A stretch of DNA of 64,000 bases. Origin: Planobispora longispora (GTDB lineage Bacteria > Actinomycetota > Actinomycetes > Streptosporangiales > Streptosporangiaceae). The notes beneath the pieces are model-generated. The model was not told the origin of the DNA. It searched no databases and worked only from the letters and a program-made list of their open reading frames with translations. The DNA lies in contig NZ_BOOH01000068.1 of NCBI RefSeq assembly GCF_016863135.1, positions 1-64,000 on the forward strand, read 5' to 3'. Positions 20,428 through 39,691 of this stretch are shown here, piece after piece (within the stretch, counting starts at the first letter, position 1; each line of letters begins with the position of its first letter). Both the position numbers and the translations under genes were made by a program.

Positions 20428-21267
20428 TCAGCGCAGGAACCCGGCCACCGTCTCGGTGAACCGCCCGGGGTCGTCGAGCCAGGGATAGTGCCCGCCGCCC
20501 GGCTGCACGGACAGCCCGGCGTGCGGGAACAGGGCGGCGTACTCGGCGGCGTGCTCCGGGGGGAGGGCGACGTCGTACTCTCCCGCGACGAGCAGGACCG
20601 GCGCCCGGAGGCGGGCGAGGGCGGATCTGACGGCTTCCGGGTCGAAGGCGCCGGCCGAGTAGTAGACGGCCGCCGCGTCCGCGTTCTTCTGGCTCGCCCC
20701 CTGGGCGACGTGCGCCTGGCTGACGGCGTCCCACCGGCCGTGGAAGAACGGGGTGATCGCCTCCCAGTCGGCGTCCGCGGCCGCGCCCGACCAGATCCGT
20801 TCGAACGCGGCGAAGGCATCGGGGAACCAGGGCTCTCCCCGGCGCAGTTCGGCGCATTCCCGCCGGTCCGGGTCGGCGATCTCCAGGCCGACCACCCGCG
20901 GGCTGGGGGTGATCAGGACGAGGCGGCCGACGCGGTCGGGGCGGCGGGCGGCGTACAGCAGGGCGACGGCCGCACCGGCGGAGTGCCCGGCCAGGTCGAG
21001 CCGGTCCAGCCCGAGGTGGACGCGCAGTGCTTCGAGGTCCTCCACCTGCCGGTCGCACCGGTAACTCGCCGGGTCCGCCGGAACGGCCGACTCCCCGGTC
21101 CCGCGCAGGTCCAGCAGCGCCAGCGGGTGACGCGCGGACAGCCCGCCCAGATCTCCGAGATAGGCCGACGCCTGCATGGGACCGCCGGGGACGCAGACCA
21201 GCGGGCGGCCTTCGCCGGTCCGGTGGTATGCGAGCCGCGTGCCGTCGGCGCCGTCGAAGGTGGTCAT
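20428..21267 (-). CDS. Alpha/beta hydrolase, proline iminopeptidase-like
   Basis: The 279-residue protein has the alpha/beta hydrolase layout: an oxyanion-hole region near CVPGGPMQ, LDLRGTGES, the nucleophile elbow GHSAG with Ser96, an acid in VAGEYDV and the late His in GGGHYPW. The LDLRGTGES sequence is shared with S33 peptidases (proline iminopeptidases). The enzyme is cytoplasmic by sequence. It is divergent from the NRPS operon across 550 nt and may or may not share its control. Confidence 0.88.
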   Translation of the reverse strand: MTTFDGADGTRLAYHRTGEGRPLVCVPGGPMQASAYLGDLGGLSARHPLALLDLRGTGESAVPADPASYRCDRQVEDLEALRVHLGLDRLDLAGHSAGAAVALLYAARRPDRVGRLVLITPSPRVVGLEIADPDRRECAELRRGEPWFPDAFAAFERIWSGAAADADWEAITPFFHGRWDAVSQAHVAQGASQKNADAAAVYYSAGAFDPEAVRSALARLRAPVLLVAGEYDVALPPEHAAEYAALFPHAGLSVQPGGGHYPWLDDPGRFTETVAGFLR

Positions 21268-21507
21268 GCGGAGATCATATGCACCGGAAGATCGTCGCGA
21301 GATCGCCGCCGTTCCCGGCCGCGTCGAGGCCGCCGGCTTCCCCGGGGCGGCGACGCGACCGCGTCCCCGACAGCCCGGGCCGGGGTGGCGCTGGTCATGG
21401 GGGTCTGACGCTGGTCATGGGAATGGCGGGTCTTCCTGTCGGCGGCAGCACAAAGGACAGCACAAATAGAAGCGGGCCATACTCCGCAAATGGTGCATAA
21501 ACCGGCG

Positions 21508-21521
21508 CGGGAGCGCTCCCA
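21508..21521. promoter_or_regulatory. CebR/CelR-like operator, upstream copy
   Basis: CGGGAGCGCTCCCA matches the published actinobacterial CebR box TGGGAGCGCTCCCA at 13 of 14 positions; its 12-nt core GGGAGCGCTCCC is a perfect palindrome with the central CG typical of LacI-family sites. It lies about 155 nt upstream of the NRPS promoter -35 and about 240 nt upstream of the divergent hydrolase start. Its centre is 207 bp from the second copy at 21715, a distance compatible with looping. Confidence 0.65.
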
Positions 21522-21620
21522 CACCCCCGGAAAACGCCCCTAAAACTAGGCATGCAGTAGGGGGGTGTCAAGAAATCGGGAAGGCGCCGTATCCACATCC
21601 GCCGCAACTCTCAGTGTAAT

Positions 21621-21637
21621 CCTGGTGAAACACCAGG
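21621..21637. other. Small inverted repeat in the NRPS promoter region
   Basis: CCTGGTG and CACCAGG form a perfect 7-bp stem around AAA. It sits between the upstream operator and the direct repeat; it could be another protein site or a minor hairpin. Confidence 0.35.
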
Positions 21638-21644
21638 CCAGGCG

Positions 21645-21674
21645 AGTAACGCGCCGGCAATGCCGAAGTAACGC
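21645..21674 (+). promoter_or_regulatory. 22-bp-phased direct repeat just upstream of the NRPS -35
   Basis: AGTAACGC occurs at 21645-21652 and again at 21667-21674, 22 bp apart (two helical turns), ending one base before the -35 hexamer. Direct repeats in this phase and position are typical of activators such as the SARP family, but the half-site differs from the SARP consensus I know. No activator gene is present in the window. Confidence 0.45.
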
Positions 21675-21675
21675 C

Positions 21676-21705
21676 TTGACGCGTTCGATCACGTCTCCCT
21701 ACCCT
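21676..21705 (+). promoter_or_regulatory. Predicted promoter of the NRPS operon
   Basis: TTGACG at 21676-21681 and TACCCT at 21700-21705 are separated by 18 nt, a good match to the actinobacterial housekeeping promoter. Transcription would start near 21711-21714, placing the second CebR-like box on the first transcribed bases. Confidence 0.6.
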
Positions 21706-21714
21706 GCTCCGCAG

Positions 21715-21728
21715 TGGGAGCGTTCCCA
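21715..21728. promoter_or_regulatory. CebR/CelR-like operator at the NRPS transcription start
   Basis: TGGGAGCGTTCCCA matches the CebR box at 13 of 14 positions (one C to T change) and is extended by GTGGGA/TCCCAC symmetry. It lies directly downstream of the predicted -10, where a bound LacI-family repressor would block initiation. Confidence 0.65.
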
Positions 21729-21818
21729 CGCTTTTCCGGCGACCCTCGACGCAGAGATGTCCGCCACCCTCAACCGCCTCGTCTCCGGCGGGTTCATCCC
21801 GATATGAGGGAGAAAACC

Positions 21819-24800
21819 ATGCTCGATGAGCTGGACTCGCGCGTTGCCACGCTGAGTCCCGCCAAGCGCGCCCTGCTGCTCCAGCGGTTGCGCGGCGGCG
21901 CGGGCACGGCGGTCGCGCCGATCCCGCGCCGTCCCTCCGGCGCGCCCGCGCCCCTCACCTTCGGCCAGGAACGGATCTGGTTCCTCGACCAGCTCGACCC
22001 CGGTGACGTGGCGTTCAACATGTGCCTGTCGCAGCGGTGGCGGGGCAGGCTGGACCTGGACGCGCTGCGGGGCGCCGTCACGGCCGTCGTCGAACGGCAC
22101 GAGAGCCTGCGCACCCGCTTCCGGTCCGAGGACGGCAGGCCGGTGCAGGAGGTCGTCCCGGACGTCGCCGTGCCGGTCGAGTTCCTCGACCACGCCGAGG
22201 CGGGACCGGGCGCGCCCCCGCCCGAGGAGTGGGCGCGCGCGGCCGTCGCGGCGCGCACCAACACCCCGTTCGACCTGGAGCGGGCGCCGCTGCTGCGGGT
22301 GAGCGCGCTGCGCCTGGGCGAGGACGACCACGTGATCTGCGTGGTCTGCCACCACATCGTGGCCGACGGGGTGTCGCTGAACGTCTTCGCCGACGAGCTG
22401 ACCGCCCGGTACGGCGCGGGCCCGGCCTACGAGCCGCCCCCGCTGCCCGTGCAGTACCCCGACTTCGCCGCCTGGCAGCGGGAGCGCCTGACGGAGGAGG
22501 CGGCCGGGCGGTCCCTGGCGTACTGGGCCGCGCGCCTGGCCGACCCGCCCGTGCTGGAGCTGCCCGCCGACCGGCCCCGGCCGGCCGTGCACTCCTCCCG
22601 CGGCGACGTCGTCACGGTGACGCTCGGCGCGGAGCCGGCCGCGGCCCTGGAGGAGTTGGCCGCCCGGCACGGCGCGACGCTGTTCATGACCCTGCTCGCC
22701 GCCTACCAGGCGTTGCTCGCGCGGCACACCGGGCAGGACGACATCTGCGTCGGATCCCCTGCCGCGGGCCGGGACCGGGTGGAGCTGGAGCCGCTGATCG
22801 GCTTCTTCCTCAACACGCTGGTGCTCCGCGGCGACCTGTCGGGGGACCCGGCCTTCCGCGAACTCCTCGACCGCACCCGCACCGCGGTGCTCGACGCCTT
22901 CGACCACCAGGACATCCCCTTCGAGCAGGTGATGGGCGAGCTGCGCGTCGAGCGCGACCTCAGCCGCTCCGCGCTGTTCCAGACGATGTTCGTCCTGCAC
23001 ACCCAGAACGACCTGCGGCGGCGGCCCGCGTTCCCCGGGGCCCGCGAGACCCCTCAAGCCCTCGATGCCGGCGAGACCTCCGAAGCCCCCGGGATCGCTG
23101 GAACCGCCGGGACCCCCGGAGCGGCGGGCGGCGGGATCGAGGAGATCACCGGGTTCGACGCCGGGTACACCGCGGCCAAGTTCGACCTGTCCCTCGACGC
23201 CTGGCGGACCCCCGACGGGCTGAGCCTGATGTTCGGGTACGCCACCGACCTGTTCGACCGCGACACCGTCGCCGCCCTCGCCGACCGTTTCACCCGGCTG
23301 CTCACCGCCGTCGCCGCCGACCCCGGCCTGCGGCTGTCGGAGATCGACCTGCTCTCCGAGGAGGAGCGCCGGCGGATCCTGGACTGGAGTGTCAACACCG
23401 CTCCGCCCTCCGCGGCCACGGTCCCCGAGCTGTTCGCCGCCGCGGTGGCGGCCCGCCCCGACGCCCCCGCGGTGACCTGCGCCGGCCGGACGCTCACCTA
23501 CGCCGAGCTGGACGCGCGCGCCGACGCCCTGGCCCGGGCGCTGCGCGCGGCGGGAGCCGGCCCGGAGTCGGTGGTCGCCGTCTCGATGGACCGCTCGCCC
23601 GACCTGCTCGCGGCCCTGCTGGCCGTCTGGAAGGCGGGCGGCGCCTACCTGCCGCTCGACCCGGCCTACCCGCCGTCGCGCCAGACCGCCATGCTCGACG
23701 ACAGCGGCGCGCGGGTGGTGCTCACCACCGCGGCGCTGCGCGAGCGCCTGCCGGACGGGCCGTACCGGGTGCTCTGCGTGGACGTCGGGCTTTCCGCCGG
23801 CACACCGGACCCGCTGCCCGCCGCCGATCCCGGCCGCGCCGCCTACGTGATCTACACCTCCGGCTCCACCGGACGGCCCAAGGGCGTCGTGGTCGAGCAC
23901 GGGGCGCTGGCGGCCCGCGTGGGCTGGATGCGGGAGGCCTACGGCCTGACCCCGGACGACCGGGTGCTCCAGTTCGCCACGGTCAGCTTCGACACCCATG
24001 CCGAGGAGATCTATCCCTGCCTGGCCGCCGGGGCCGCGCTCGTGATGCTGCCCGGCGGCGGGGAGTTCCTGCCGGACTTCCTGGCCACGCCGTACGCCAG
24101 GGACCTGACCGTCCTGGACCTGCCCACTCCCTACTGGCACGAGCTGGTCACCGACCTGGACACCGTGGACTGGCCGCCCGGTCTGCGGCTGACGATCCTC
24201 GGCGCCGACCAGGCCCAGGCGGCGGCCGTGACGGCGTGGCACCGGCACTTCGGCGGCCGGGTGCGCCTGATGAACACCTACGGCCCCACCGAGGCCACGA
24301 TCATCGCCAGCGCCGCCGAGCTGCGCGCGGACGACCGGCGCCCGCCGATCGGCAGGCCCATCGCGGCCACCGCCCTCTACGTGCTGGACGAGCGGCGGCG
24401 GCTCGCCCCGGTCGGGGTCCCGGGCGAGCTGTACATCGGCGGGTCCGGGCTGGCCCGCGGCTACCTCGGCCGGCCCGATCTCACCGCCGAGCGCTTCGTC
24501 CCCGACCCGTACGGCGGCGGCCGCCTCTACCGCAGCGGCGACCGCGCCCGCTGGCGGCCCGACGGGGAGCTGGAGTTCCTCGGCCGCGCCGACGACCAGG
24601 TCAAGGTGCGCGGGTACCGGATCGAGCCCGGCGAGATCGAGTCCTGCCTGCTCGCGCACCCCGCCGTCGCCCAGGCCGTGGTCTTCGCCGAGCGGGGCAA
24701 CCTGCTGGCCTACGTGGTCCCGGCGGCCGACGCCCTGACGGCGGGAACCCCCGCGGCCGACGTCCCGGGTGCCGGGGCTCCGGTGGCCGGTGCCGAGCTG

Positions 24801-27743
24801 GGACCGGAGCTGCGCGAGCACGTCGCCCGGGCCCTGCCCGCCCACATGGTGCCCGCCGCCGTGACGGTCGTGGACCGCCTGCCGCTGACGCCCAACGGCA
24901 AGCTGGACCGGGCCGCGCTGCCCGCCCCCGAGTTCGGCGGCGGCGGCGGTCACGTCGCCCCCTCGACCCCCACCGAGCAGGCGATCGCCGATGTCTGGGC
25001 GCAGGTGCTCGGGATCGAGCGGGTCGGCGTCGAGGACGACTTCTTCGATCTGGGCGGCCATTCCCTGCTGGCCACCCAGGTCATCGCCAGGATGCGGCGC
25101 GCGCTCGGCGCGGGCGTCTCCCTGATGGACCTGTTCCGGCACCCCACCGTCCGCGAGCTCGCCGCCCTGGCCGACACCCCCGCCGACGCCAGGCGGTCCG
25201 GCCGCCTGCTGCACGAGCTCACCCCGCCGATCCCGCAGGACCGGTGCGTGCTCACCTACGTCTGCGTCCCGTACGGCGGCGGCAGCGCGGTGGTCTACCA
25301 GCCGCTGGCCGACGCCCTGCCCGAGGGGTACCGGCTGTTCTCGCTGGCCGTGCCGGGGCACGACGTGGGCCTGGCCGAGGACCCGCTGCCCTTCGACGAA
25401 CTCGCCGCCCGCTGCGTGGCCGAGGTCCTGGAGCGGGTGACGGGCCCCGTGGTGGTCTACGGCCACAGCAGCGTGGGCTCGGCCCTCGCCGTGGAGGTCG
25501 CCCGGCTGCTGGAGGCGGCGGGTCGGATACCCGAGGCCGTCTACATCGGGGCGGCCTTCCCGTTCGCGCGGCCCCGCGGCCGCGTGATGAACGCGCTGTC
25601 CCGCCTGGCCCGCGCCTCCGCCGTCGCCTCCGACCGGGCCTACGGCAACTGGCTGGCCTCCATGGGCGTGGACCTCAGCGAGCTCACCCCCGAGCAGGCC
25701 CTCCACATCGTGCGCACCATGCGCGCCGAGGCCGAGCACGCCGAGCGGTACTTCACCGGCCTGCTCGACGGCGGGATCACACGGCTGCGGGCCCCGCTGG
25801 TCACGATCGCCGGCGAGCGCGACCCGGCCACCGAGTACCACGAGGAGCGCTACCGCGAGTGGCACTTCCTGACTCCGACCAGCGTCCTGGTGGTGCTGGA
25901 GGAGGCGGGCCACTTCTTCGTCCGCTACCGCGCCCGGGAGCTGGCCGAGATCATCACCACCGCGCACCTCGCCGCGGATCCGGCGACGGATTCGGCGACG
26001 GAGCCTGCGCGAGGACCGGCGGCGGAATCCGCGACGGGATCGGCATCGGGTCCGGCGGCGGGGTCGACGGCGGGAGCGGAGGGGCCGCCTGGGGTGAGAG
26101 ACGCGGCCGCATCGCCGTCGCGGCGCGAGGACGGCGCGACCTGGTGGCTGGAGGGCGTCTCACGCTCCCCGGAGGCCGCGCGATCCGCGGGGGCCGTACG
26201 GTCCGCGGAGTCCGCAGAGGTAACGGAGTCTGCGGAGGCCACGGGGCCTGCGAGGGCTGCGGATCGCGCGGAGCCCGCGGGGCCGGAGCCGAGCATGCGG
26301 CGCTTCCTCGTGGTCGCCTCCGGCCAGCTCATCTCGATCACCGGTTCCGCGCTCACCGAGTTCGCCGTCCCCATCTGGATCTACCTGACGACCGGCTCCG
26401 TGGCCGACTTCGCCCTGTTCGCGGTGCTCGGCCTGGTCCCCGGCCTGCTGGTCGCGCCGCTGGCGGGGGCGGTGGTCGACCGGCTCGACCGCAGGAAGGT
26501 CATGCTCTGCGGGGACATCGGGGCCTTCGGCACCCAGCTCGCCCTCGGCGTCCTGCTGTGGACGGGGAACCTGCAGATCTGGCACATCTACCCGCTGCTG
26601 GTCTGCCTGTCCATCGCGCTGACCTTCCAGCGCCTGGCCTACGCCTCGGCCATCCCGCAGCTGGTGCCCAAGCGGTACCTGGGCCACGCCAACGGCGTCA
26701 ACCAGATGGTCACCGGCGTCTCCCAGCTGATCGTGCCGCTGGCCGCCGCCGGGCTGGTGGCGGGCGTCGGGCTGGAGGGCGTCCTCATCCTGGACGTGGT
26801 GAGCTACCTGTTCGCCATCGGCGTGCTGCTGGCCGTGCGCTTCCCCCGGACCATGGCCCACCGGCGCAGGGAGACGGTGACCGCCGAGATCGTCGAGGGC
26901 TTCCGCTACTCCTGGGGGCACCGCGGCTTCCGGAGCATGCTGATCTTCTTCGCCGTCCTGAACGTCTTCCTCTCCCCGCTGTTCCTGATGATCTCCCCGC
27001 TGGTGTTGTCGTCCGGGACGCTCGGCGACGTGGGGCGGGTCTCGTTCGCCTCGGGGATGGGCGTGTTCCTCGGCGGCCTGGTGATGAGCGTGTGGGGCGG
27101 GCCGCGACGGCTGCGGGTGCGCGGCATGCTGTTGTTCACACTCGTCCTGGGCCTGTTCTCCCTGGTCACAGGGGTGCAGGAGGATCTGCTCGTCATCGGG
27201 GCCGGGGCCTTCGGCATGGGCATGGCGCTCACCCTGGTGAACGGGATCTACGCCACGGTCGTCCAGGTCAAGGTGGCGCAGCGGTTCCACGGGCGGGTGT
27301 TCGCGCTCAACACGATGATCGCGTGGTCCACCACGCCGATCGGGATGGGCCTGCTCGCGCCGTACGCGTCGGCCGTCCTGGAACCCCTCATGACGCCGGA
27401 CGGACCGCTCGCCCCGACCGTGGGGGCGCTCCTGGGCACCGGCCCCGGGCGGGGCATCGGGCTGATGTACGTGATCTGCGCCGTGATGATCCTGGTGATC
27501 GCCGGTACGGCGCTGCGCCTGCGCTCGCTGACCCGCTTCGACCGGGAGGCGGTGGACTCCGTCCCCGACGACGTGCTCGGATCCGTCGCCCTGGTCCGCC
27601 GGGGCCGCGCGGGCGGCGGCGTGGACAACGCGAACGGCGTGAACCGCGGGGTGAACGGCGCGGGTGACAGCGGCGCGGACGGCGGTGGGAACGGCGGCGG
27701 CTCGCAGGAGAACGACCCGCGCCTGGAGAGGGAGCTGCGATGA
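21819..27743 (+). CDS. NRPS module C-A-T-TE fused to an MFS transporter
   Basis: One uninterrupted 1974-residue frame. I choose ATG 21819 (GAGGGAG six to seven nt upstream). Order: condensation (about 43-500; active-site HHIVADG at 178-184), adenylation (about 530-1035; YTSGSTGRPKG, NGKLDR), carrier (Ser1082 in LGGHSL), type-II-like thioesterase (about 1141-1381; Ser1217 in GHSSVG, late GERD and AGHFF), an Ala/Glu/Ser/Thr-rich linker (about 1382-1490) with short repeats, then a major facilitator domain (about 1493-1910; 10-12 helices, DRLDRRK loop). The pocket residues read D-T-E-D-I-G-T-I-I-K by my alignment, an acidic pocket suggesting a basic amino acid. So synthesis, release and export sit on one chain. 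An internal ATG 26295 with GGAG nearby could yield free transporter. RefSeq has used the name NRPS/MFS transporter for similar fusions, but they are uncommon. Confidence 0.92.
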   Translation: MLDELDSRVATLSPAKRALLLQRLRGGAGTAVAPIPRRPSGAPAPLTFGQERIWFLDQLDPGDVAFNMCLSQRWRGRLDLDALRGAVTAVVERHESLRTRFRSEDGRPVQEVVPDVAVPVEFLDHAEAGPGAPPPEEWARAAVAARTNTPFDLERAPLLRVSALRLGEDDHVICVVCHHIVADGVSLNVFADELTARYGAGPAYEPPPLPVQYPDFAAWQRERLTEEAAGRSLAYWAARLADPPVLELPADRPRPAVHSSRGDVVTVTLGAEPAAALEELAARHGATLFMTLLAAYQALLARHTGQDDICVGSPAAGRDRVELEPLIGFFLNTLVLRGDLSGDPAFRELLDRTRTAVLDAFDHQDIPFEQVMGELRVERDLSRSALFQTMFVLHTQNDLRRRPAFPGARETPQALDAGETSEAPGIAGTAGTPGAAGGGIEEITGFDAGYTAAKFDLSLDAWRTPDGLSLMFGYATDLFDRDTVAALADRFTRLLTAVAADPGLRLSEIDLLSEEERRRILDWSVNTAPPSAATVPELFAAAVAARPDAPAVTCAGRTLTYAELDARADALARALRAAGAGPESVVAVSMDRSPDLLAALLAVWKAGGAYLPLDPAYPPSRQTAMLDDSGARVVLTTAALRERLPDGPYRVLCVDVGLSAGTPDPLPAADPGRAAYVIYTSGSTGRPKGVVVEHGALAARVGWMREAYGLTPDDRVLQFATVSFDTHAEEIYPCLAAGAALVMLPGGGEFLPDFLATPYARDLTVLDLPTPYWHELVTDLDTVDWPPGLRLTILGADQAQAAAVTAWHRHFGGRVRLMNTYGPTEATIIASAAELRADDRRPPIGRPIAATALYVLDERRRLAPVGVPGELYIGGSGLARGYLGRPDLTAERFVPDPYGGGRLYRSGDRARWRPDGELEFLGRADDQVKVRGYRIEPGEIESCLLAHPAVAQAVVFAERGNLLAYVVPAADALTAGTPAADVPGAGAPVAGAELGPELREHVARALPAHMVPAAVTVVDRLPLTPNGKLDRAALPAPEFGGGGGHVAPSTPTEQAIADVWAQVLGIERVGVEDDFFDLGGHSLLATQVIARMRRALGAGVSLMDLFRHPTVRELAALADTPADARRSGRLLHELTPPIPQDRCVLTYVCVPYGGGSAVVYQPLADALPEGYRLFSLAVPGHDVGLAEDPLPFDELAARCVAEVLERVTGPVVVYGHSSVGSALAVEVARLLEAAGRIPEAVYIGAAFPFARPRGRVMNALSRLARASAVASDRAYGNWLASMGVDLSELTPEQALHIVRTMRAEAEHAERYFTGLLDGGITRLRAPLVTIAGERDPATEYHEERYREWHFLTPTSVLVVLEEAGHFFVRYRARELAEIITTAHLAADPATDSATEPARGPAAESATGSASGPAAGSTAGAEGPPGVRDAAASPSRREDGATWWLEGVSRSPEAARSAGAVRSAESAEVTESAEATGPARAADRAEPAGPEPSMRRFLVVASGQLISITGSALTEFAVPIWIYLTTGSVADFALFAVLGLVPGLLVAPLAGAVVDRLDRRKVMLCGDIGAFGTQLALGVLLWTGNLQIWHIYPLLVCLSIALTFQRLAYASAIPQLVPKRYLGHANGVNQMVTGVSQLIVPLAAAGLVAGVGLEGVLILDVVSYLFAIGVLLAVRFPRTMAHRRRETVTAEIVEGFRYSWGHRGFRSMLIFFAVLNVFLSPLFLMISPLVLSSGTLGDVGRVSFASGMGVFLGGLVMSVWGGPRRLRVRGMLLFTLVLGLFSLVTGVQEDLLVIGAGAFGMGMALTLVNGIYATVVQVKVAQRFHGRVFALNTMIAWSTTPIGMGLLAPYASAVLEPLMTPDGPLAPTVGALLGTGPGRGIGLMYVICAVMILVIAGTALRLRSLTRFDREAVDSVPDDVLGSVALVRRGRAGGGVDNANGVNRGVNGAGDSGADGGGNGGGSQENDPRLERELR

Positions 27744-29248
27744 CGGACACGCCGGTGCTGCGGACCGTGCCGGACCTACTGCGACTGCGCGCCGCCGAGG
27801 ATCCCGGGCGGACCGCGATCGAGGTGGCGGGCGGGGACGCGCTGACCTTCGAGGAGTGGGAGCGGCGTTCGGACGCGGTCGCCCACGGCCTGCTCGGCCT
27901 GGGGGTGCGTCCCGGCGACCGGGTCGGGCTGCTGTTCGGGAGCGGGGACTGGACCGGCTTCGCCGTCGCCTTCTGCGCCGCGCAGAAGGCCGGGGCGGTG
28001 GCCGTGCCGATCTCCGACCGCCTCGCCCCGCCGGAGGCCGGATACATGCTCGACCACTGCTCGGCCTCCGTCGTGGTGCACGCCGAGGGGCTGACCCCGC
28101 CCGCCGGGCCGTACCCGGCCGTCCCCGCCGCCCGGCTGGAGGACGCCGGCGAAGGACCCGTCGGCGTCCGGGTCCGCTCCGGCGACCTGGCGCAGATCCT
28201 CTACACCTCGGGCACCACCGGGCGGCCCAAGGGCGTGGGCGCCGCTCACGCCAACCTGGTCCACGGCTGCGAGACCCGCCGGAACCGGCGCCGCTTCCGG
28301 CACTCCGAGCACCTGCTGCACGCCTTCCCGATCGGCACCAACGCCGGTCAGACGATGCTGATGAACGCCCTGGACGCGCACCCCACGGTCGTGACCCCCG
28401 CCCGGTTCACCCCGGGCAGGTTCACCCGGCTGATCGAGGCGTACCGGGCGGGCACCGTCTTCGTCGTGCCCGCGATGGTGATCGAGCTGCTCGACACGGG
28501 ACTGCACGAACGCCACGACCTGTCGAGCGTCGTGCTCCTCGGCTCGTCGGCGGCGGCCCTCCCCCCGGCGCTGTCCGCGCGGCTGGCCGCCGCCTTCCCC
28601 AACGCCACGGTGACGAACTACTACACCTCCACCGAGGCGGCCCCCGCCCAGACGATCATGATCTACGACCCGGCCAGGCCCGCCGCGCTGGGCCGCCCGG
28701 CCTTCGGCGGCGCCCTGCGCGTCGCCGACCGCGAGGGCCGCCCGCTGCCGCCCGGCGAGACGGGCGAGATCTGGCTGCGCTCCCCCGCCGCCGCCCGCAG
28801 CTACTACGGCGACGAGCGGGCCAGCGCCGAGACGTTCCGGGACGGCTGGGTGCGGATGGGAGACGTCGGGCACCTCGACGCCGACGGCTACCTCTACCTG
28901 GACGACCGGGAGAGCGACGTGGTGAAGACCGGCGCCTTCAAGGTCTCGACGCTCCAGGTGGAGGCCGCGCTGTACGAGCACCCGCAGATCAAGGAGGCGG
29001 CGGTGGTCGGCGTCGCGCACCGGGTGCTGGGCTCCGTGCTCGCCGCCGCGGTCGTGCCGCGTTCCCCGGACCTGTCCGCCGGCGAGCTGCGCGCCTTCCT
29101 GATGGATCGGCTGGCCCGGCACGAACTGCCCGAACGGGTGCTGGTCATGGACGCCCTGCCCAGAAACCAGACCGGCAAAGTCATCAAGGGGCGACTGCGG
29201 GAACTGCTCGACGGCTCCGCGCCCCAGGCACGAACGGAAGGTGCATGA
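27740..29248 (+). CDS. Free-standing AMP-dependent acyl ligase of the NRPS operon
   Basis: The 502-residue ANL-family protein has YTSGTTGRPKG, YYTSTEAAP (the A5 region), MGDVGHLD and the C-terminal catalytic Lys in NQTGKVIKG, but no carrier domain. It starts at ATG 27740 inside the preceding stop (ATGA overlap) with GAGAGGGAG upstream. In NRPS clusters such enzymes adenylate an acyl or aryl acid and load it on a carrier or CoA. The natural acceptors here are the C-T protein or the 79-residue carrier just downstream. The sequence is nearer to fatty-acyl/acyl-CoA ligases than to amino-acid A domains. The acid is unknown; no aryl-acid biosynthesis genes are present. Confidence 0.88.
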   Translation: MTDTPVLRTVPDLLRLRAAEDPGRTAIEVAGGDALTFEEWERRSDAVAHGLLGLGVRPGDRVGLLFGSGDWTGFAVAFCAAQKAGAVAVPISDRLAPPEAGYMLDHCSASVVVHAEGLTPPAGPYPAVPAARLEDAGEGPVGVRVRSGDLAQILYTSGTTGRPKGVGAAHANLVHGCETRRNRRRFRHSEHLLHAFPIGTNAGQTMLMNALDAHPTVVTPARFTPGRFTRLIEAYRAGTVFVVPAMVIELLDTGLHERHDLSSVVLLGSSAAALPPALSARLAAAFPNATVTNYYTSTEAAPAQTIMIYDPARPAALGRPAFGGALRVADREGRPLPPGETGEIWLRSPAAARSYYGDERASAETFRDGWVRMGDVGHLDADGYLYLDDRESDVVKTGAFKVSTLQVEAALYEHPQIKEAAVVGVAHRVLGSVLAAAVVPRSPDLSAGELRAFLMDRLARHELPERVLVMDALPRNQTGKVIKGRLRELLDGSAPQARTEGA

Positions 29249-29252
29249 CCCC

Positions 29253-30908
29253 ATGCGATCATCGGTAACCGGGGACCGGGCCTCCCTCGCCCAGCACGGG
29301 ATGTGGCTCACCGAGCGGACGGGCGTGGGCGGGGGCGCCGCGCACCACATGCCGCTCGCCGTCCATCTGGAAGGGCCTCTGGACGAGGCCGCGCTCCGGG
29401 ACGCCTGCGCCGCCGTCGCCGCCCGCCACCCCGTTCTCGCCTCCGCTCTGGTGGAGGAGGACGGCGAGCTGCGGCTCGTCCCCGGCGCGGCCGGACCGCC
29501 CTTCACCGTCGAGGACGTGACCGAGGAGGACGTGCCGGCCGCCCTCGACGAGGCGGCGGCCCGCCCCTTCGACCTGGCCGCGGGACCGCTCGTCCGGTTC
29601 ACGCTGTTCCGGCTGGGGCTCAAGCGGCACCTCCTGCTGGTCGTCGCCCACCACGCGGCCTTCGACGGCATGTCGAAGGACCTCCTCCTGCGTGACCTCG
29701 CCGTCGCCTACGGCGGCTCGCCCCTGGCCCCGCTGGAGACCTCCTACGGCGAGGCGGCGGCCGACGAGCACGACCGCGTGGCGGCGAAGCTGGCGGACGC
29801 GGCGCAGTTCTGGCGGCCCCGCTGGAACGACGGGGGCGGACTGCTGCTCCCCGGGCTGCGGCGCGTGTCGCTGCGCGCCGCCCCCGGCGAGACGGTGGAC
29901 GTCGCCCTCGGCTCCGGCCTGGGCTCCGCGCTCGGCCCGGCCGCCGAGCGGATCGGCGTCACCCGCTTCGAGCTGCTGCTGGCCGCGGTGCACACCCTGC
30001 TGTACGGCTACGGCAACGCCCCGGCCACCGTGTCCGTGGACGTCTCGACCCGGACCGGGCAGACGCGGGACCACGTGGGGATGTTCGTCAACGAGCTCCC
30101 GGTGACCGCCTCGCCGGCCGGGACCCTCGCACCGGACGGAACCCTCGCACCGGAGGGGACGTTCGGCGCCTTCGCCCGGTCGGTCCGCGACGAGCTGCGC
30201 GCGGCCTACCGGTTCAGGGAGGTGCCGGTCGCGCGGGCCCTGGGCGGTGTCTCCCCGCGCGCCTCGCTCACCCCGGTCTCGCTGAGCTACCGCAGGCGCG
30301 GCGAGGCCCCCCTCTTCCCCGACCTCGACTCCCGCGTCGAGTGGACGATGTCCAACCACACGGTCCGGGGGACGTTGCACCTGCAGGCCGTGGAGGCCCC
30401 GGACGGGGTCACCGCCCACCTGCGGTTCGACCCCGGCTGCCTGGACCGCGCCTCCTGCGAGGCCGTCGCCGGGCACCTGACGGCCCTGCTGCGCGCCGTC
30501 GCCGCCCGTCCCGACACGCCGATCGCCGAGCTGCCGCTCCCGCCCCGGCAGCAGGCGGTCACGGCGCCGGCCGCCGCGTCCGGGCCCGGCCTCACCGCCG
30601 GATCCGCCGCCGCGAACGGGTCCGCTTCCGCCGCCCCCGCCGCTGAGCCCGCTTCCGGGTCCGCCCCGGGCGGATCCCGCGTCCTGGACGAGGTCCTGGA
30701 GATCTGGCGCGAGGTCCTCGGCATGGACGACATCACCCCCGACGACGACCTGTTCGACCTCGGCGGCCACTCGTTGTCCATCACGCAGATCATCGCCAAG
30801 GTGCGCGACCGGATGGGTGTGGAGCTCTCCTTCGAGGTGTTCATCGACACCCCGACCGCCGCGGGCGTCGCCGCCGACATCGACCGGCTACGGGAGGAGG
30901 CGTGCTGA
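29253..30908 (+). CDS. Condensation domain plus carrier protein (C-T)
   Basis: I prefer ATG 29253 (551 residues), preceded by GGAAGGTG; a GTG at 29241 is possible but has no spaced ribosome site. The condensation domain (about 10-430) keeps the full active site HHAAFDG. A 60-residue Ala/Ser/Pro-rich linker follows, then a carrier domain (about 470-551) with DLFDLGGHSLSITQ, whose Ser takes phosphopantetheine. There is no adenylation domain, so its carrier must be charged in trans, perhaps by the ligase encoded just upstream. It overlaps the next gene by 7 nt. Confidence 0.88.
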   Translation: MRSSVTGDRASLAQHGMWLTERTGVGGGAAHHMPLAVHLEGPLDEAALRDACAAVAARHPVLASALVEEDGELRLVPGAAGPPFTVEDVTEEDVPAALDEAAARPFDLAAGPLVRFTLFRLGLKRHLLLVVAHHAAFDGMSKDLLLRDLAVAYGGSPLAPLETSYGEAAADEHDRVAAKLADAAQFWRPRWNDGGGLLLPGLRRVSLRAAPGETVDVALGSGLGSALGPAAERIGVTRFELLLAAVHTLLYGYGNAPATVSVDVSTRTGQTRDHVGMFVNELPVTASPAGTLAPDGTLAPEGTFGAFARSVRDELRAAYRFREVPVARALGGVSPRASLTPVSLSYRRRGEAPLFPDLDSRVEWTMSNHTVRGTLHLQAVEAPDGVTAHLRFDPGCLDRASCEAVAGHLTALLRAVAARPDTPIAELPLPPRQQAVTAPAAASGPGLTAGSAAANGSASAAPAAEPASGSAPGGSRVLDEVLEIWREVLGMDDITPDDDLFDLGGHSLSITQIIAKVRDRMGVELSFEVFIDTPTAAGVAADIDRLREEAC

Positions 30909-31141
30909 GGCGGCGCCTGGCCGAGCTGGTCTCCGGCGCGAGCGACGGCGGCCTCGACGTCGAGGAGATCATGGCGGCCTCCGGCTCGCTGACCGCCCTG
31001 GGCGTCACCTCCCTCGCCTACCTGCGGCTGATCGACGCGGTGGAGGAGGAGTTCGGCGTCGAGCTGGACGGACCGGCCGTCCTCGACACCCTGGACGGGC
31101 TGGCCGCCCACATCGCCGACCGGCGGGCGGCGCCGCGATGA
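30902..31141 (+). CDS. Free-standing acyl/peptidyl carrier protein
   Basis: The 79-residue acidic helical protein has the carrier signature LGVTSLAYLRL, with the Ser as phosphopantetheine site. The GTG start at 30902 follows GGAGGAGG and overlaps the C-T gene. The serine motif (GVTSL rather than GGHSL) is closer to acyl carrier or aryl carrier proteins than to the in-line carriers in this operon. That supports loading by the free AMP ligase. It should hand its acyl group to one of the free condensation domains next to it. Confidence 0.85.
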   Translation: MLRRRLAELVSGASDGGLDVEEIMAASGSLTALGVTSLAYLRLIDAVEEEFGVELDGPAVLDTLDGLAAHIADRRAAPR

Positions 31142-32532
31142 CCGGGCGCCCCTTCGCCTGGCTGCGCTCGGCGACGGTGGAGTTCACCGGGGAACGCGGC
31201 GGCCAGGCCCCGCTCACCTGGGGGCAGCGGTCGATCTGGCGCATCACCCGGTGGCTGGAGGACGGCGACCCCTACTTCAACACGCCATGGGTGCTGCCCG
31301 TCCCCGGCAAGCCGGACCTCGGCACGGTGCTGCGGGCGCTGGGAACGCTGGTCGGGCGGCACGAGTCCCTCCGGACCACCTGCCACCAGACTCCGGAGGG
31401 GCCCGTCCAGCGGGTCGCGGCCGGCGGGCGGCTGACCGTCGAGATATTCGACGCGCTGGACGCCGCTCCCCGGCAGGTCGCCGCGGATCTCGCCGACGAG
31501 CTCGCCGCCAAGGGCTTCGACTACGCCGCCGAGCTGCCGCTGCGGTGCGCCGTCGTGACGGCGGACGGGCGGCCGAGGGCCCTCGCGCTGGCCCTGTCCC
31601 ACCTGGCCGTCGACGCCTGGGCGCTCGACCTGATCGCCGCGGAGTGGCGGCGGCTGCTGGCCGGGGAGGACCTGCCGCCGCCCGCCTGGCAGCCGATGGA
31701 CCAGGCCGCCTTCGAGTGCTCGGACAAGGGCGCCGAGCGCGGCGAACGGGCCCTGCGCCACTGGCGGTCGGTGCTGGAGCGGACGCCCGCGACGCTGTTC
31801 GACCACCCGCCCGGCACGCCGGAGGATCCGCGCTTCGTCAGGGTCGGCATGGAATCGGCCGCCGTCGCGGCGGCCGCCCGGGTGCTGGCGGAGCGCTGGG
31901 CGGTCAGCACCACCAGCGTGCTGCTGACGGCGAGCGCCGTGCTGCTGACCGCGCTGACCGGCCGCGGCACGGCGGTCATGCAGTTCATCGTGGGCAACCG
32001 GCACGACCCGCGGCTCCACGGCATGGTGGGCACCGCCGTACAGGACGGATTGTTCGTGCTCGACCTGCCGGACGGCACGTTCGCCGACGCCGTCCGGGCC
32101 GGGCACCGGCAGGCGCTGGTCACCTACCGGCACGCGCACTACGAGCCGTACGCGATGATGGCGCTGCGCGAGGAGACCGGGCCCGCCGATCTGTCGGCCT
32201 ACTTCAACGACGTGCGCACCGTCCCCGCCTGGCCGAACCTGCCCGCCCACGCCACGCGGGACCCGGCCGCGCTCACCGGCCGGACGAAGACCTTCCACGT
32301 CGGCTCCTGGGCCGAGGTGGACGCGAAGGTGTTCTTCGCCACCGGGCCCGCGACCCACACCTGTCAGCTCTACCTGCTGACCGACACCGCCTACCTGCCG
32401 CGGTCCACCGCCTACGCGCTGCTGCGGGGCGTGGAGACGCTGCTGGTGCGCTGCGTGACCGAGGAGGTGCCGCTCGGCCGCGTCGCCGGGGTCTGCGGCC
32501 TCGTCGGCGCCCTACCCGAGGAGATGAGATGA
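31138..32532 (+). CDS. Condensation-like protein with degenerate active site
   Basis: The 464-residue protein has the two-lobed condensation fold (LTWGQRSIWRITRW start, FNDVRTVP and related motifs). The usual HHxxxDG is SHLAVDA instead: the first His and the Gly are replaced, while the second (catalytic) His and the Asp remain. It might therefore keep activity with altered substrates, catalyse another transfer, or act as a docking or gatekeeping domain. It is translated by a 4-nt ATGA overlap from the carrier gene and overlaps mbtH at its end. It has no carrier or adenylation domain of its own. Confidence 0.82.
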   Translation: MTGRPFAWLRSATVEFTGERGGQAPLTWGQRSIWRITRWLEDGDPYFNTPWVLPVPGKPDLGTVLRALGTLVGRHESLRTTCHQTPEGPVQRVAAGGRLTVEIFDALDAAPRQVAADLADELAAKGFDYAAELPLRCAVVTADGRPRALALALSHLAVDAWALDLIAAEWRRLLAGEDLPPPAWQPMDQAAFECSDKGAERGERALRHWRSVLERTPATLFDHPPGTPEDPRFVRVGMESAAVAAAARVLAERWAVSTTSVLLTASAVLLTALTGRGTAVMQFIVGNRHDPRLHGMVGTAVQDGLFVLDLPDGTFADAVRAGHRQALVTYRHAHYEPYAMMALREETGPADLSAYFNDVRTVPAWPNLPAHATRDPAALTGRTKTFHVGSWAEVDAKVFFATGPATHTCQLYLLTDTAYLPRSTAYALLRGVETLLVRCVTEEVPLGRVAGVCGLVGALPEEMR

Positions 32533-32717
32533 CGGACGGTCCCATGCGCGTGGTCGTCAACGACGAGGAGCAGTACTCCATCTGGTGGTCCGACCGGGAG
32601 CTGCCGCCGGGGTGGAGCGCCACCGGGTTCGAGGGTCCCCGGCAGGAGTGCCTGGACCACATCGCGACGGTGTGGACGGACCTGCGGCCGCTCAGCGTCA
32701 GGAACCGGACGCCTTGA
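32529..32717 (+). CDS. MbtH-like protein
   Basis: The 62-residue protein has the MbtH signature: N-DEE-QYS-W, PPGW, G-EG-R-ECL, and W-TDLRPLSVR. MbtH proteins bind NRPS adenylation domains and are often needed for folding or activity. One variation stands out: the family SxWP motif reads SIWW here, so the proline after the Trp is lost. The gene overlaps its neighbours on both sides (ATGA at the start, TTGA at the end). It presumably serves the three adenylation domains of this operon. Confidence 0.95.
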   Translation: MTDGPMRVVVNDEEQYSIWWSDRELPPGWSATGFEGPRQECLDHIATVWTDLRPLSVRNRTP

Positions 32718-34162
32718 CCGGGGACCCCCTGACCGGGCAGGACCGGCGGCAGGCGCTGCTGCGGCGCCTGGCCGCCCTGCCCCCCGCCCGCCGCGAGGCC
32801 CTGCGCCGCGCGATGACCGGGGCGCCCGCCGTCCCCGGCCTGCCGCTCTCCTCGGGCCAGGAGCGGCTCTGGTTCCTCAACCGGTTCGACCCGGCCGACA
32901 GCAGCAACCACATCCTGTGGTGCCTGCGGCTGCGCGGCCCGATCGACCCCGGCGGGCTGGCCGCCGCCCTCACCGCGGTCGCCGGGCGGCACGAGGTGCT
33001 GCGCGCGCGGTACCGCATGGACGGCGACCGGCCGGTCCAGGTCGTGCCGCCGCCGGAGCCGGTGGTCCTGGAGCTCTCCGACGGCGGCGCCGACCCCGAC
33101 GCGGCCGTGCTCGCCCTGTTCGACCGGCCCTTCGACCTGGAGAACGATCCCCCCGTCCGGGCGGCGCTGATCGAGCTGGAGGAACGGCACGCGCTGCTGT
33201 GCATCGTGCTGCACCACATCGCCGCGGACGGCTGGTCGCTGAACCTCCTCATGCGGGAGCTGGGCGAGTGCTACGCGGCCCACCGGGAGGGCAGGCCGCC
33301 CGAGCTGGAGGAACTGCCGGCGCGGTACGCCGACTTCGTGGCCTGGGAACGCAAGCAGGCCGAGCGGGCGGGGGCGGCCAGGCTCGCGTTCTGGACGGAG
33401 CGGCTGGCGGGCGTGCCCGTCCTCGACCTGCCGGCCGACCATCCGCGCCCGGCCCGCTGGACGGGACGCGGCGGGAGGGTGGACCTGCACGTGCCGGACG
33501 CGGAGGTCACCCGCTTCGAGCAGGTGGCCAGGCAGCGGCGGAGCACCCTGTTCATGGGGCTGCTGGCGGCCTTCCAGGCGACGCTCGGCGCCGTGGCCGG
33601 GCAGGACGACTTCTGCGTGGGCGTGCCGGTCGCGGGGCGCGGCCGTACCGAGTTCGCGCCGCTGATCGGCTACTTCTCCAACACCATCGCGCTCCGCGCC
33701 GACCTGTCGGGCGACCCCTCCTTCCGGGAGCTGCTCGGCCGGGTCCGCCCGGCGACCCTGCGGGCGCTGCAGCACGCGGAGGAGCCCTTCGAGCGGATCC
33801 TCGGCGCGCTCCGGCTCCCGCGCGACCTGAGCAGGCCGCCGCTGTGCCAGGCGATGTTCAACCTGACGCACAACCTGCCCAAGGACGACCTGCTGCGCAC
33901 GGCGATGGGCGATCTCGCCGTGGAGGTCTACCCGCCGCCGGAGACCGGCCGGACCAGGGCCGAGATCTCGGTGGACCTGTACCGGGGACCGGAGGGACTG
34001 GGCGGGTCCCTCGAATACGGCAGCGACCTGTTCTCGGCCGGGACCGCGCGGCGCGTGGCCGCCGCCTTCACCGGCCTGGTGACGCGCGCCGGGGCCGACC
34101 CGGACCTGCCGCTTTCTAAACTTTCTGAACTTTCCGGGCTTTCCGGACTGAAAGGTGAATGA
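32714..34162 (+). CDS. Free-standing condensation domain
   Basis: I assign the start to TTG 32714, which overlaps the mbtH stop (TTGA). It gives a 482-residue protein whose N-terminal helix (QALLRRLAALPPARREALRR) parallels the start of the first NRPS, so an internal ATG at 32812 is less likely. It is a complete condensation domain with HHIAADG intact, GYFSNTIALR and the usual C-terminal lobe, and no carrier. The C-terminus is a short Leu/Ser/Gly repeat encoded by four 9-bp units. It probably acts in trans on the A-T protein encoded next. Confidence 0.85.
   Translation: MTGDPLTGQDRRQALLRRLAALPPARREALRRAMTGAPAVPGLPLSSGQERLWFLNRFDPADSSNHILWCLRLRGPIDPGGLAAALTAVAGRHEVLRARYRMDGDRPVQVVPPPEPVVLELSDGGADPDAAVLALFDRPFDLENDPPVRAALIELEERHALLCIVLHHIAADGWSLNLLMRELGECYAAHREGRPPELEELPARYADFVAWERKQAERAGAARLAFWTERLAGVPVLDLPADHPRPARWTGRGGRVDLHVPDAEVTRFEQVARQRRSTLFMGLLAAFQATLGAVAGQDDFCVGVPVAGRGRTEFAPLIGYFSNTIALRADLSGDPSFRELLGRVRPATLRALQHAEEPFERILGALRLPRDLSRPPLCQAMFNLTHNLPKDDLLRTAMGDLAVEVYPPPETGRTRAEISVDLYRGPEGLGGSLEYGSDLFSAGTARRVAAAFTGLVTRAGADPDLPLSKLSELSGLSGLKGE
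34112..34147 (+). repeat. 9-bp tandem repeat at the 3' end of the free C-domain gene
   Basis: Four units of the form CTTTCNRRR (34112-34120, 34121-34129, 34130-34138, 34139-34147) encode LSK, LSE, LSG, LSG just before the stop. The stretch is clearly more AT-rich than its surroundings. Confidence 0.8.
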
Positions 34163-34166
34163 CCAC

Positions 34167-36166
34167 ATGGGGACGACACTGGATCTGATCCGGCGGTGGT
34201 GCGAGCGCACGCCCGACGCGGTCGCCGTACGCGCGCCCGACGGCGAGCTGACCTACGGCGAGCTGTGGCGGCGCGCGGACGACCTGGCGGCGGTGCTTCG
34301 GGAGCGGGGCGTGGGGCCCGAGATCCCCGTCGGGCTCTGCCTGGAGCGCACGAGCGGGATACTCGTCGCGGTGCTGGCCGTCTGGGCCGCGGGCGGCGCG
34401 TACGTCCCGCTCGACCCCGCCTTCCCCGCCGACCGGCTCGCGCTGACGCGCGAGGACGCGGGGGTCGGCCTGGTGCTGACCCAGCCCGGGGTGGACCGCG
34501 CCCTGCTGGAGGGCGTGGCCGAGGTGATCGAACTCTCCCCCGGCGGCGTCGCCTCCCTCCCGGCCGGTACGGCCTCCGCCATCACGACCCCCGCCTCCGC
34601 CATCACGACCCCCGCCTCCGCCATCACGACCCCCGCCTCCGCCATCACGACCTCGCCCTCCGCCACCGGCACGACCTCGGCCTCCGCCACCGGATCCGCC
34701 GCGGACGACCTGGCCTACCTGATGTACACCTCCGGATCCACCGGCCGCCCCAAGGGCGTGGCGGTCCCGCACGGCGCGGTGGTCAACCTGCTGGAGTCCT
34801 TCGCGGCCCGCCTGGAGCTGACCCCCGGAGACGTCTGGCTCGCGGTGACCACCCTGTCCTTCGACATCTCGGTCCTGGAACTGCTGCTCCCCCTGACCTG
34901 CGGCGCGCGCGTGGTCGTCGCCGCGGGGACCGCGGACGGCCGGGCCCTGCGGGAGCGCGCGATCGCCGAGGGGGTCACGGTCATGCAGGCCACCCCGGCG
35001 GGCTGGCGGGTCCTGGTGGAGTCCGGCGGGGTCCCGGAGGGGATCGGCACCCGCCTGTGCGGCGGCGAGGCGCTCCCCCGCGACCTGGCCGACGCCCTGC
35101 TCGGCGGCGCACCCCGCAACGGCGTGCCCGGCGGGGACGCCCCGCACGCGGGCGGGGTCCGGCTGTGGAACGTCTACGGGCCGACGGAGACGACCGTGTG
35201 GTCCTCGGCGGGCCTCGTCGCTCCGTCGCCCGCGGCCGTCGACCTGGGCGAGCCCATCGCGCGCACCCAGTTGCACGTCCTGGGCCCCGACGGCCTGCCG
35301 GTGCCGCCCGGGGAGGTGGGCGAGCTGCACATCGGCGGGGCCGGGGTGGCCCGGGGCTACCACGGCATGCCCGCGATGACCGCCGACCGCTTCCTCCCGG
35401 ACCCCTTCGCCGACCGGCCCGGGGCCCGCATGTACGCCACCGGCGACCTCGTCCGGATCACGCCCGCAGGCCGCCTGGAGTACCTGGGCCGCGCCGACCA
35501 GCAGGTGAAGATCCGGGGGTTCCGGATCGAGCTCGGCGAGATCGAGACCGTCCTGCGCTCCCTGCCCGGCGTACGGCAGGCCGCCGTCAGCGCGTGCGAG
35601 GGCCCCGACGGGCTGCCCCGGCTGGTGGCCCACATCGTCCCCGAGACGCTCCCCGTACCCGCCGGACTCTGGCCCGACCTCCGCGGACGGCTGCGTAAGC
35701 GCCTGCCCGAGTACATGGTCCCCGCGCACCTGAGCGTGCTGGAGTACCTGCCCCTCACGCCCAACGGCAAGCTCGACCGCGCGGCGCTGCCCCGCCCCAA
35801 GTGGACCAGGGCCGCGACCGCCGCCTACCGGGAACCCCGAGGCGCCCTGGAGTCTGACTTAGCCGTCATGTGGGCCGAGGTGCTCGGCATCGCCGAGCCG
35901 GTCGGCGCCGACGACGACTTCTTCGACCTCGGCGGGCACTCGCTGACCGCCACCCAGATCATCGCCAGGATCCAGGAGCGCTTCGCGGTCACGGTGCCGA
36001 TCGCGCTGCTCTTCGAGCACCCCACCGTCGCGGGGCTGGCCCGGGAGATGGACCTCCTCGACCCCGACGACCTGGACCTGGCCGAGGTCGCCGCGCTCCG
36101 CGACCAGCTGGACGGCCTCAGCGCCGAGGACCTGGAAGCCCTCTTCGACGAACTGGCGCCGGGCGC

Positions 36167-36170
<4 letters not shown>
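34167..36170 (+). CDS. NRPS adenylation-carrier protein (A-T), predicted glycine
   Basis: I choose ATG 34167, eight nt after AGGTGA; a GTG at 34155 is the alternative. The protein has 667 residues. The adenylation domain spans about 10-540 (MYTSGSTGRPKG, NVYGPTETT, TGDLVRI, NGKLDR) and the carrier about 550-640 (Ser592 in LGGHSL), with an acidic helical tail that may dock to the next protein. My reading of the pocket is D-I-L-Q-L-G-V-V-W-K, very close to the glycine code D-I-L-Q-L-G-L-I-W-K as I recall it. A 21-bp repeat expands the loop before the A3 motif. It lacks a cis condensation domain; the free C domain upstream probably supplies it. Confidence 0.9.
34572..34655 (+). repeat. 21-bp tandem repeat in the A-domain loop
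   Basis: Four consecutive units encode ASAITTP (the last ends in TS), starting at residue 136, followed by two decayed copies (to about 34695). The first three units are identical at the DNA level, which points to recent expansion or active slippage. Confidence 0.9.

Positions 36171-39691
<3,521 letters not shown>

Follow-up and report, generated by a model that had tools for sequence, protein, structure and literature searches.

CebR control of a biosynthetic gene cluster is so far known mainly from thaxtomin in a plant pathogen, Streptomyces scabies, where the published CebR sites are found either 786-900 nt ahead of txtR/txtA or within txtB (PMC5332605, PMC4890002, PMC12527672). Release of CebR by cellobiose and cellotriose has been reported on Streptomyces sites (PMC4890002), and a 2025 collection of regulator sites in biosynthetic clusters gives, in the available part of its text, thaxtomin alone for CebR (PMC12527672). 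Levels of concanamycin and coronafacoyl compounds shift with cellobiose and/or cebR deletion (PMC8552735). A 2012 survey described CelR sites near pyruvate-dehydrogenase-related genes of Streptosporangium roseum; it also located one within an A. mirum polyketide synthase gene, and on that basis suggested that secondary metabolism might be among the targets (PMC3377646).

Here, a non-ribosomal peptide synthetase (NRPS) operon preceded by two CebR-type boxes was analysed in a 64-kb stretch of DNA from a Planobispora genome (called 'the window', at its full length) and compared with related loci. With a probability of roughly 0.85, CebR directly represses this operon and cellobiose or cellotriose releases it; binding, repression and release by sugar are steps that we infer from predicted sites.

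Boxes, promoter-like sequences and genes of the window

An initial annotation of the window had placed two near-perfect CebR/CelR boxes upstream of the first NRPS gene, and a TTGACG-n18-TACCCT promoter at the second of them. A re-scan recovered both boxes, starting at 21508 and 21715 and each matching TGGGAGCGCTCCCA at 13 of 14 positions, and the promoter was present as well. The promoter region thus holds two sites at one mismatch from the 14-bp palindrome TGGGAGCGCTCCCA that marks CebR/CelR regulons, 207 bp apart from start to start. Box 1 (21508-21521; CGGGAGCGCTCCCA, one mismatch) is a putative CebR-type operator of a divergent, minus-strand promoter, and box 2 (21715-21728; TGGGAGCGTTCCCA, one mismatch) is a putative CebR-type operator just downstream of the NRPS promoter. 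The latter promoter (21676-21705, plus strand) consists of TTGACG (21676-21681), 18 nt and TACCCT (21700-21705), and is conserved between clades; box 2 starts 9 nt past the -10 hexamer and 104 nt (start to start) ahead of the first codon of the operon. The divergent promoter (21543-21571, minus strand) reads TTGACA, 17 nt, TAGTTT, and box 1 begins 21 nt past its -10. These promoter assignments rest on conservation, a strict promoter scanner having returned no call within 21200-21900. The stretch 21508-21728 is best read, from its sequence, as a putative two-way control region of the cellobiose regulon.

The boxes are located in a 551-bp gap with an alpha/beta hydrolase gene (20428-21267, minus strand; Pfam PF00561) on one side and the NRPS operon (21819-39691, plus strand) on the other. 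A 90% identical hydrolase gene occupies the same place in P. rosea (L058); in the locus maps no such gene was called beside the operon in Planomonospora, and the hydrolase is for that reason a weak candidate for a conserved target of box 1. By Pfam, the nine genes of the operon encode, in order, a protein of 1974 aa with C-A-T-thioesterase domains fused to an MFS transporter (g1, 21819-27743), a stand-alone adenylating enzyme resembling acyl-AMP/CoA ligases (g2, 27740-29248), a condensation-thiolation (C-T) protein (g3, 29301-30908), a stand-alone carrier protein (g4, 30902-31141), a stand-alone condensation domain (g5, 31138-32532), an MbtH-like protein (g6, 32529-32717), a further stand-alone condensation domain (g7, 32714-34162), an A-T protein with a glycine-like pocket code (g8, 34155-36170) and a final C-A-T protein (g9, 36167-39691), all on the plus strand. 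Start positions are approximate, since genes were called by a simple codon-position script. The nearest solved structures to g2 are fatty-acyl and feruloyl-CoA synthases, so that g2 may load an acyl starter. In g1 the MFS transporter domain follows the thioesterase, and the synthetase is apparently fused to its own exporter; long relatives of g1 are present in most orthologous operons. The A-domain codes were read by eye with pocket positions and meanings that we presume to be the usual ones, under which g8 is glycine-like in the seven loci compared and the g1 and g9 pockets of the window resemble those for basic residues; the g1 pocket differs in some genera. Among the window genes, annotated in part, no regulator gene lies within the operon and a TetR-type gene lies 0.6 kb past it.

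At a tolerance of up to three mismatches, the window contains 9 sites against 8.93 expected, an absence of excess that would fit chance resemblance. At up to one mismatch it contains 2 sites, where 200 dinucleotide shuffles gave 0.04 on average and never more than 1; when the 551-bp gap was shuffled 3000 times, one shuffle gave one site and none gave two, and no two-site result appeared in 3000 shuffles per locus. The whole genome (8.84 Mb) has 10 exact and 5 one-mismatch sites, two of these five being boxes 1 and 2, and no exact match to a reversed-pattern control. In 17 related genomes taken together there are 193 exact boxes (0 to 18 in each, present in 16 of the 17) and no match to the reversed pattern. 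Shuffles, the reversed-pattern control and the held-out conservation given below together led us to reject a chance match, to which we assign next to no probability.

CebR and its predicted regulon in the genome

A genome scan for a CebR-like LacI regulator, and for boxes upstream of ceb/cel genes, had been set as a test by the initial annotation, and it turned up both. The CebR orthologue (L005:11109-12128, contig C1) is encoded with cebEFG-bglC in an operon of the order SBP-permease-permease-GH1-LacI (cebEFG-bglC-cebR), behind two perfect boxes 131 bp apart. Its LacI protein aligns at 421 bits with PDB 5ysz, which we take to be Thermobifida CelR, and has an identical recognition segment; this segment, GVGRGTVSRV, is also identical in all 16 genomes with a CebR of at least 75% identity. 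The one genome of the 17 that has no close CebR (G061, best match 57% identity) is also the one with 0 exact boxes.

Further exact boxes stand ahead of GH48, GH6 and GH9 genes, of two additional GH1 genes, of an SBP_bac_5 importer beside a LacI gene and of another LacI gene, while one exact site (C23) falls within an ORF with no Pfam match and one site with a single mismatch (C8) is inside a coding region. Another one-mismatch site (G000:C11:79974; L014:5475-5488), at which the genome has its only exact TGGGAGCGTTCCCA besides box 2, precedes a GFO/IDH/MocA-type oxidoreductase gene by 33 bp, measured to the called start. At the GH48 gene, the perfect box before the gene is followed by a one-mismatch box of sequence CGGGAGCGCTCCCA (L007:11769-11782) just inside the called start; the true GH48 start may be further downstream. 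At cebE, all 9 of the 9 loci measured (L005, L165-L172) have two perfect boxes, at a separation of 120-122 or 130-131 bp, two classes that differ by about one helical turn; the maps show no divergent gene, and looping or double locking may matter there.

Conservation of the boxes across orthologous operons

For comparison between genomes, the C-T protein encoded by g3 was used as query in two family searches, of 61 and of 140 genomes, each a sample of a larger group. Altogether 39 loci were mapped, 22 in a first round (in which the 13 weaker of 32 places were left out) and 17 in a second (all 17 new places of 34). The operon and its matched C-T protein were present in all four Planobispora genomes compared, P. 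rosea included. Three records (L061, L064 and L065) represent L058, L060 and L059 and were not counted again, and matches in G086 and G096 duplicate L067 and L063; an Actinacidiphila locus (L068) of another layout, with no box within two mismatches, was excluded from the 39. Some operons were incomplete in the maps, L067 being cut by a contig end after g3, L097 having no called g1 or g5, and L102 no calls for g2, g4, g6, g7 and g9.

Conservation of the boxes upstream of orthologous operons, on which the initial annotation had staked its proposal, was borne out: a box within one mismatch precedes the first gene in 23 of 23 operons, from 11 genera of Streptosporangiaceae, and the pair is present in 22 of them, the exception (L066) having a single box in the gap, with a perfect box beyond it. 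The 13 operon orthologues of the first round (13 with a box, 12 with the pair) were classed after their boxes had been seen. The ten full operons of the second round served as a held-out set, for which a prediction covering full operons with E below 1e-150 had been noted before they were fetched; all ten have the pair. One further locus (L158) had an E-value within the bound of that prediction but a different layout and no box. In eight diverged loci, 1 of 120 flanking columns is invariant, as compared with 12 of the 14 columns of the boxes.

Of all 39 loci, 31 show an NRPS gene preceded by a box at up to one mismatch, including five of the other seven second-round loci, in which that gene belongs to a shorter layout (L158 and L162 have none). 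The eight loci with no such box (L101, L104, L105, L107, L109, L110, L158 and L162) include no full operon. In seven of these, g2-g3 are present but the remaining operon genes do not follow; behind g3 there are instead genes of dehydrogenase E1/E2 type in six (a Pfam assignment for L109, one from similarity for L158 and L162, and one from gene size only for L104, L107 and L110) and other NRPS genes in L105. Five of the seven were placed on a tree, where they form one group with support of 94/85, just under the mark of the tool; the box label required 2 changes there, and each of 500 shuffles required more. The eighth locus, L101, groups with the box-bearing loci and is a genuine exception: 3.6 kb separate its first NRPS gene from the nearest box before it. 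One of the box-less loci with E1/E2 genes behind g2-g3, L109 (G000:C33), is a second related NRPS locus in the genome of the window, and has no CebR box.

Each box adjoins promoter-like sequence of its own in most loci. In 21 of the 22 loci with a pair, TTGAC(N)-N17/18-TA(N3)T adjoins box 2, and in 20 of the 22, TTGACA-N17/18-TA(N3)T adjoins box 1, facing away; 14 of 20000 random 60-mers of the window match the promoter expression. Box 1 starts 1-4 nt past the divergent -10 in 15 of the 20 loci, and 21-22 nt past it in the clade of the window (5 loci). From this arrangement, each box is best taken to be the operator of its own promoter, the two promoters being divergent.

What lies behind box 1 varies. 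In most other genera the divergent promoter is followed by 2-oxoacid dehydrogenase genes. Pfam identifies E1/E2 genes there in L060, in L067 and, behind its single box, in L066; similarity does so in 9 of the 10 held-out operons, those of L157 being located downstream. In L060 (16106-19325) and L148-L156, the divergent genes are E1-alpha/E1-beta/E2 genes that use a control region in common with the NRPS operon, each side having a box. These dehydrogenase genes may supply an acyl starter, and the published S. roseum sites are likely to belong to the divergent genes of such an NRPS locus, although S. roseum itself was not identified among the loci mapped. The gene behind box 1 is the hydrolase in the window and in P. 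rosea, and a LacI gene in one operon of G018. The latter regulator (L102, G018:C8, 15122-17493) adjoins a sugar-binding-protein gene; among the proteins of the window's genome it is most similar (40%) to a LacI protein other than CebR.

The perfect box 1 in front of dehydrogenase genes in most other genera would also suit an arrangement in which both boxes serve the divergent promoter only, with the NRPS operon a bystander. We regard this as highly improbable: box 2 adjoins the NRPS promoter and is conserved at least as well as box 1, shorter clusters with no dehydrogenase on that side (L103, L106, L108, L159-L161, L163 and L164) keep a box before an NRPS gene, and the divergent gene has been swapped in the clade of the window.

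Looping between the two sites had also been suggested from their 207-bp spacing, a figure that stands, but looping is not needed, since each box has its own promoter, and as a required feature it was set aside. A looped unit, in which one CebR oligomer bridges both boxes and full repression needs both boxes and their spacing, would draw on the 197-208 bp found in 20 of the 22 pairs; these spacings fall into two classes that differ by about one helical turn, as for the cebE pairs. Yet conservation of the pair calls for no loop where each box has a promoter in most loci, the pairs are related sequences whose spacing classes represent few independent events, and there are spacings of 184 and 229 bp as well as a locus with a single box in the gap (L066). 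We therefore hold a loop of this kind to be doubtful, and retain separate operators as the preferred reading.

Linkage to cebR itself was found at 9 of the 23 operons, in four genera, within about 7 kb. The last NRPS gene and cebR are tail-to-tail neighbours, about 85-100 bp apart, in G138 and G067; one further condensation gene separates them in G053; one to five genes, at most 6.6 kb, do so in G098, G041, G137 and G118; and in G063 and G119 cebR is about as close, from coordinates alone. The other 14 operons, that of the window among them, are separated from cebR by 160 kb or more or lie on a different contig, a count that takes in L067 and L155, whose contigs end soon after the operon; three contigs in the linkage mapping were covered in part.

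The imperfection of box 2 is itself conserved. Of the 23 operons, 17 have TGGGAGCGTTCCCA as box 2, 4 have its reverse complement, 1 has a different deviation and 1 a perfect box, so that the same one-base deviation occurs in 21. Box 1 is perfect in 17 of 22, and the remaining 5, the clade of the window, have CGGGAGCGCTCCCA, which is identical to the published txtA/txtR site. The conserved deviation suggests a tuned, weaker operator. The S. scabies authors described imperfect CebR sites as bound more weakly and responding earlier (PMC5332605), and by analogy the same may apply at box 2; a caution has also been published that one-mismatch sites are possibly not all functional.

A different LacI-family protein could be the main binder of box 2, the deviation then being the preferred site of a paralogue. 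Besides the identical deviation, this draws on the 24 LacI HTH matches of the genome (23 above the cut-off), which include three further proteins 45-54% identical to CebR, one of them adjoining a box with GH1 and SBP genes, and on the LacI gene of another type behind box 1 in G018. Box 2 is, however, one base off an exact box that is itself found in nearly all related genomes, the paralogue recognition segment is GVSRATVSRVVNG as against that of CebR, cebR itself is the gene found beside the linked operons, and exact TGGGAGCGTTCCCA has just 1-6 occurrences per genome in 24 genomes. A paralogue as main binder is thus unlikely, and CebR remains the preferred candidate.

Proposed switch and comparison with known systems

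In the proposed switch, CebR, encoded with cebEFG-bglC, would bind box 2 past the NRPS -10 and block transcription of the nine-gene operon, and would bind box 1 and block the divergent promoter. Cellulose breakdown would bring cellobiose or cellotriose into the cell, CebR would be released and both promoters would become active, with the one-base deviation presumably making box 2 weaker and easier to open. Production of the peptide would probably follow the sensing of cellulose fragments. Boxes, promoter-like sequences, regulon, regulator gene, conservation, linkage and the absence of the box from the related cluster type all point this way; the counterpoints are L101 with no box, a divergent gene that is not conserved, two imperfect boxes in the window and a cebR on another contig. 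More tentatively, the operon may be an old, built-in part of cellulose utilisation in Streptosporangiaceae, with an acyl starter perhaps from the dehydrogenase and a weaker operator through which cello-oligosaccharide, at low and early levels, would switch it on ahead of the cellulases, for example to defend or condition a plant-debris niche; we consider this possible, rather less than an even chance.

No report of this NRPS operon under CebR was found in open-access papers (supplementary files lay outside the search), and the operon is not identified in the available main text of an RNA-seq paper on P. rosea (PMC8269224). The locus shares with the CelR/CebR regulons of Actinobacteria the 14-bp palindrome, and the genome shares with them cellulases, a cellobiose importer and the regulator gene as targets; it differs from those accounts in that, in their available text, no NRPS operon is named (PMC3377646, PMC4898821). 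In the rotihibin cluster of S. scabies, NRPS proteins likewise respond to cellobiose, but that response was reported to be independent of cebR (PMC8552735).

Thaxtomin, the precedent cited by the initial annotation, applies as far as CebR boxes on NRPS genes are concerned, and not in layout. As in thaxtomin, NRPS genes here have imperfect CebR boxes, and box 1 has the sequence of a thaxtomin site. In thaxtomin, where the activator TxtR is involved, the sites are far upstream or inside coding sequence; box 2 is in neither position, lying on the operon's own core NRPS promoter and paired with a divergent box. Unlike in thaxtomin, too, the wiring spans many genera and often lies beside cebR, the same arrangement having been kept over 11 genera of another family. 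Cellobiose or cellotriose is a cheap candidate elicitor for an uncharacterised peptide family in rare actinomycetes, and the wiring makes testable the idea that secondary metabolism is generally switched on ahead of the cellulases by means of imperfect CebR sites.
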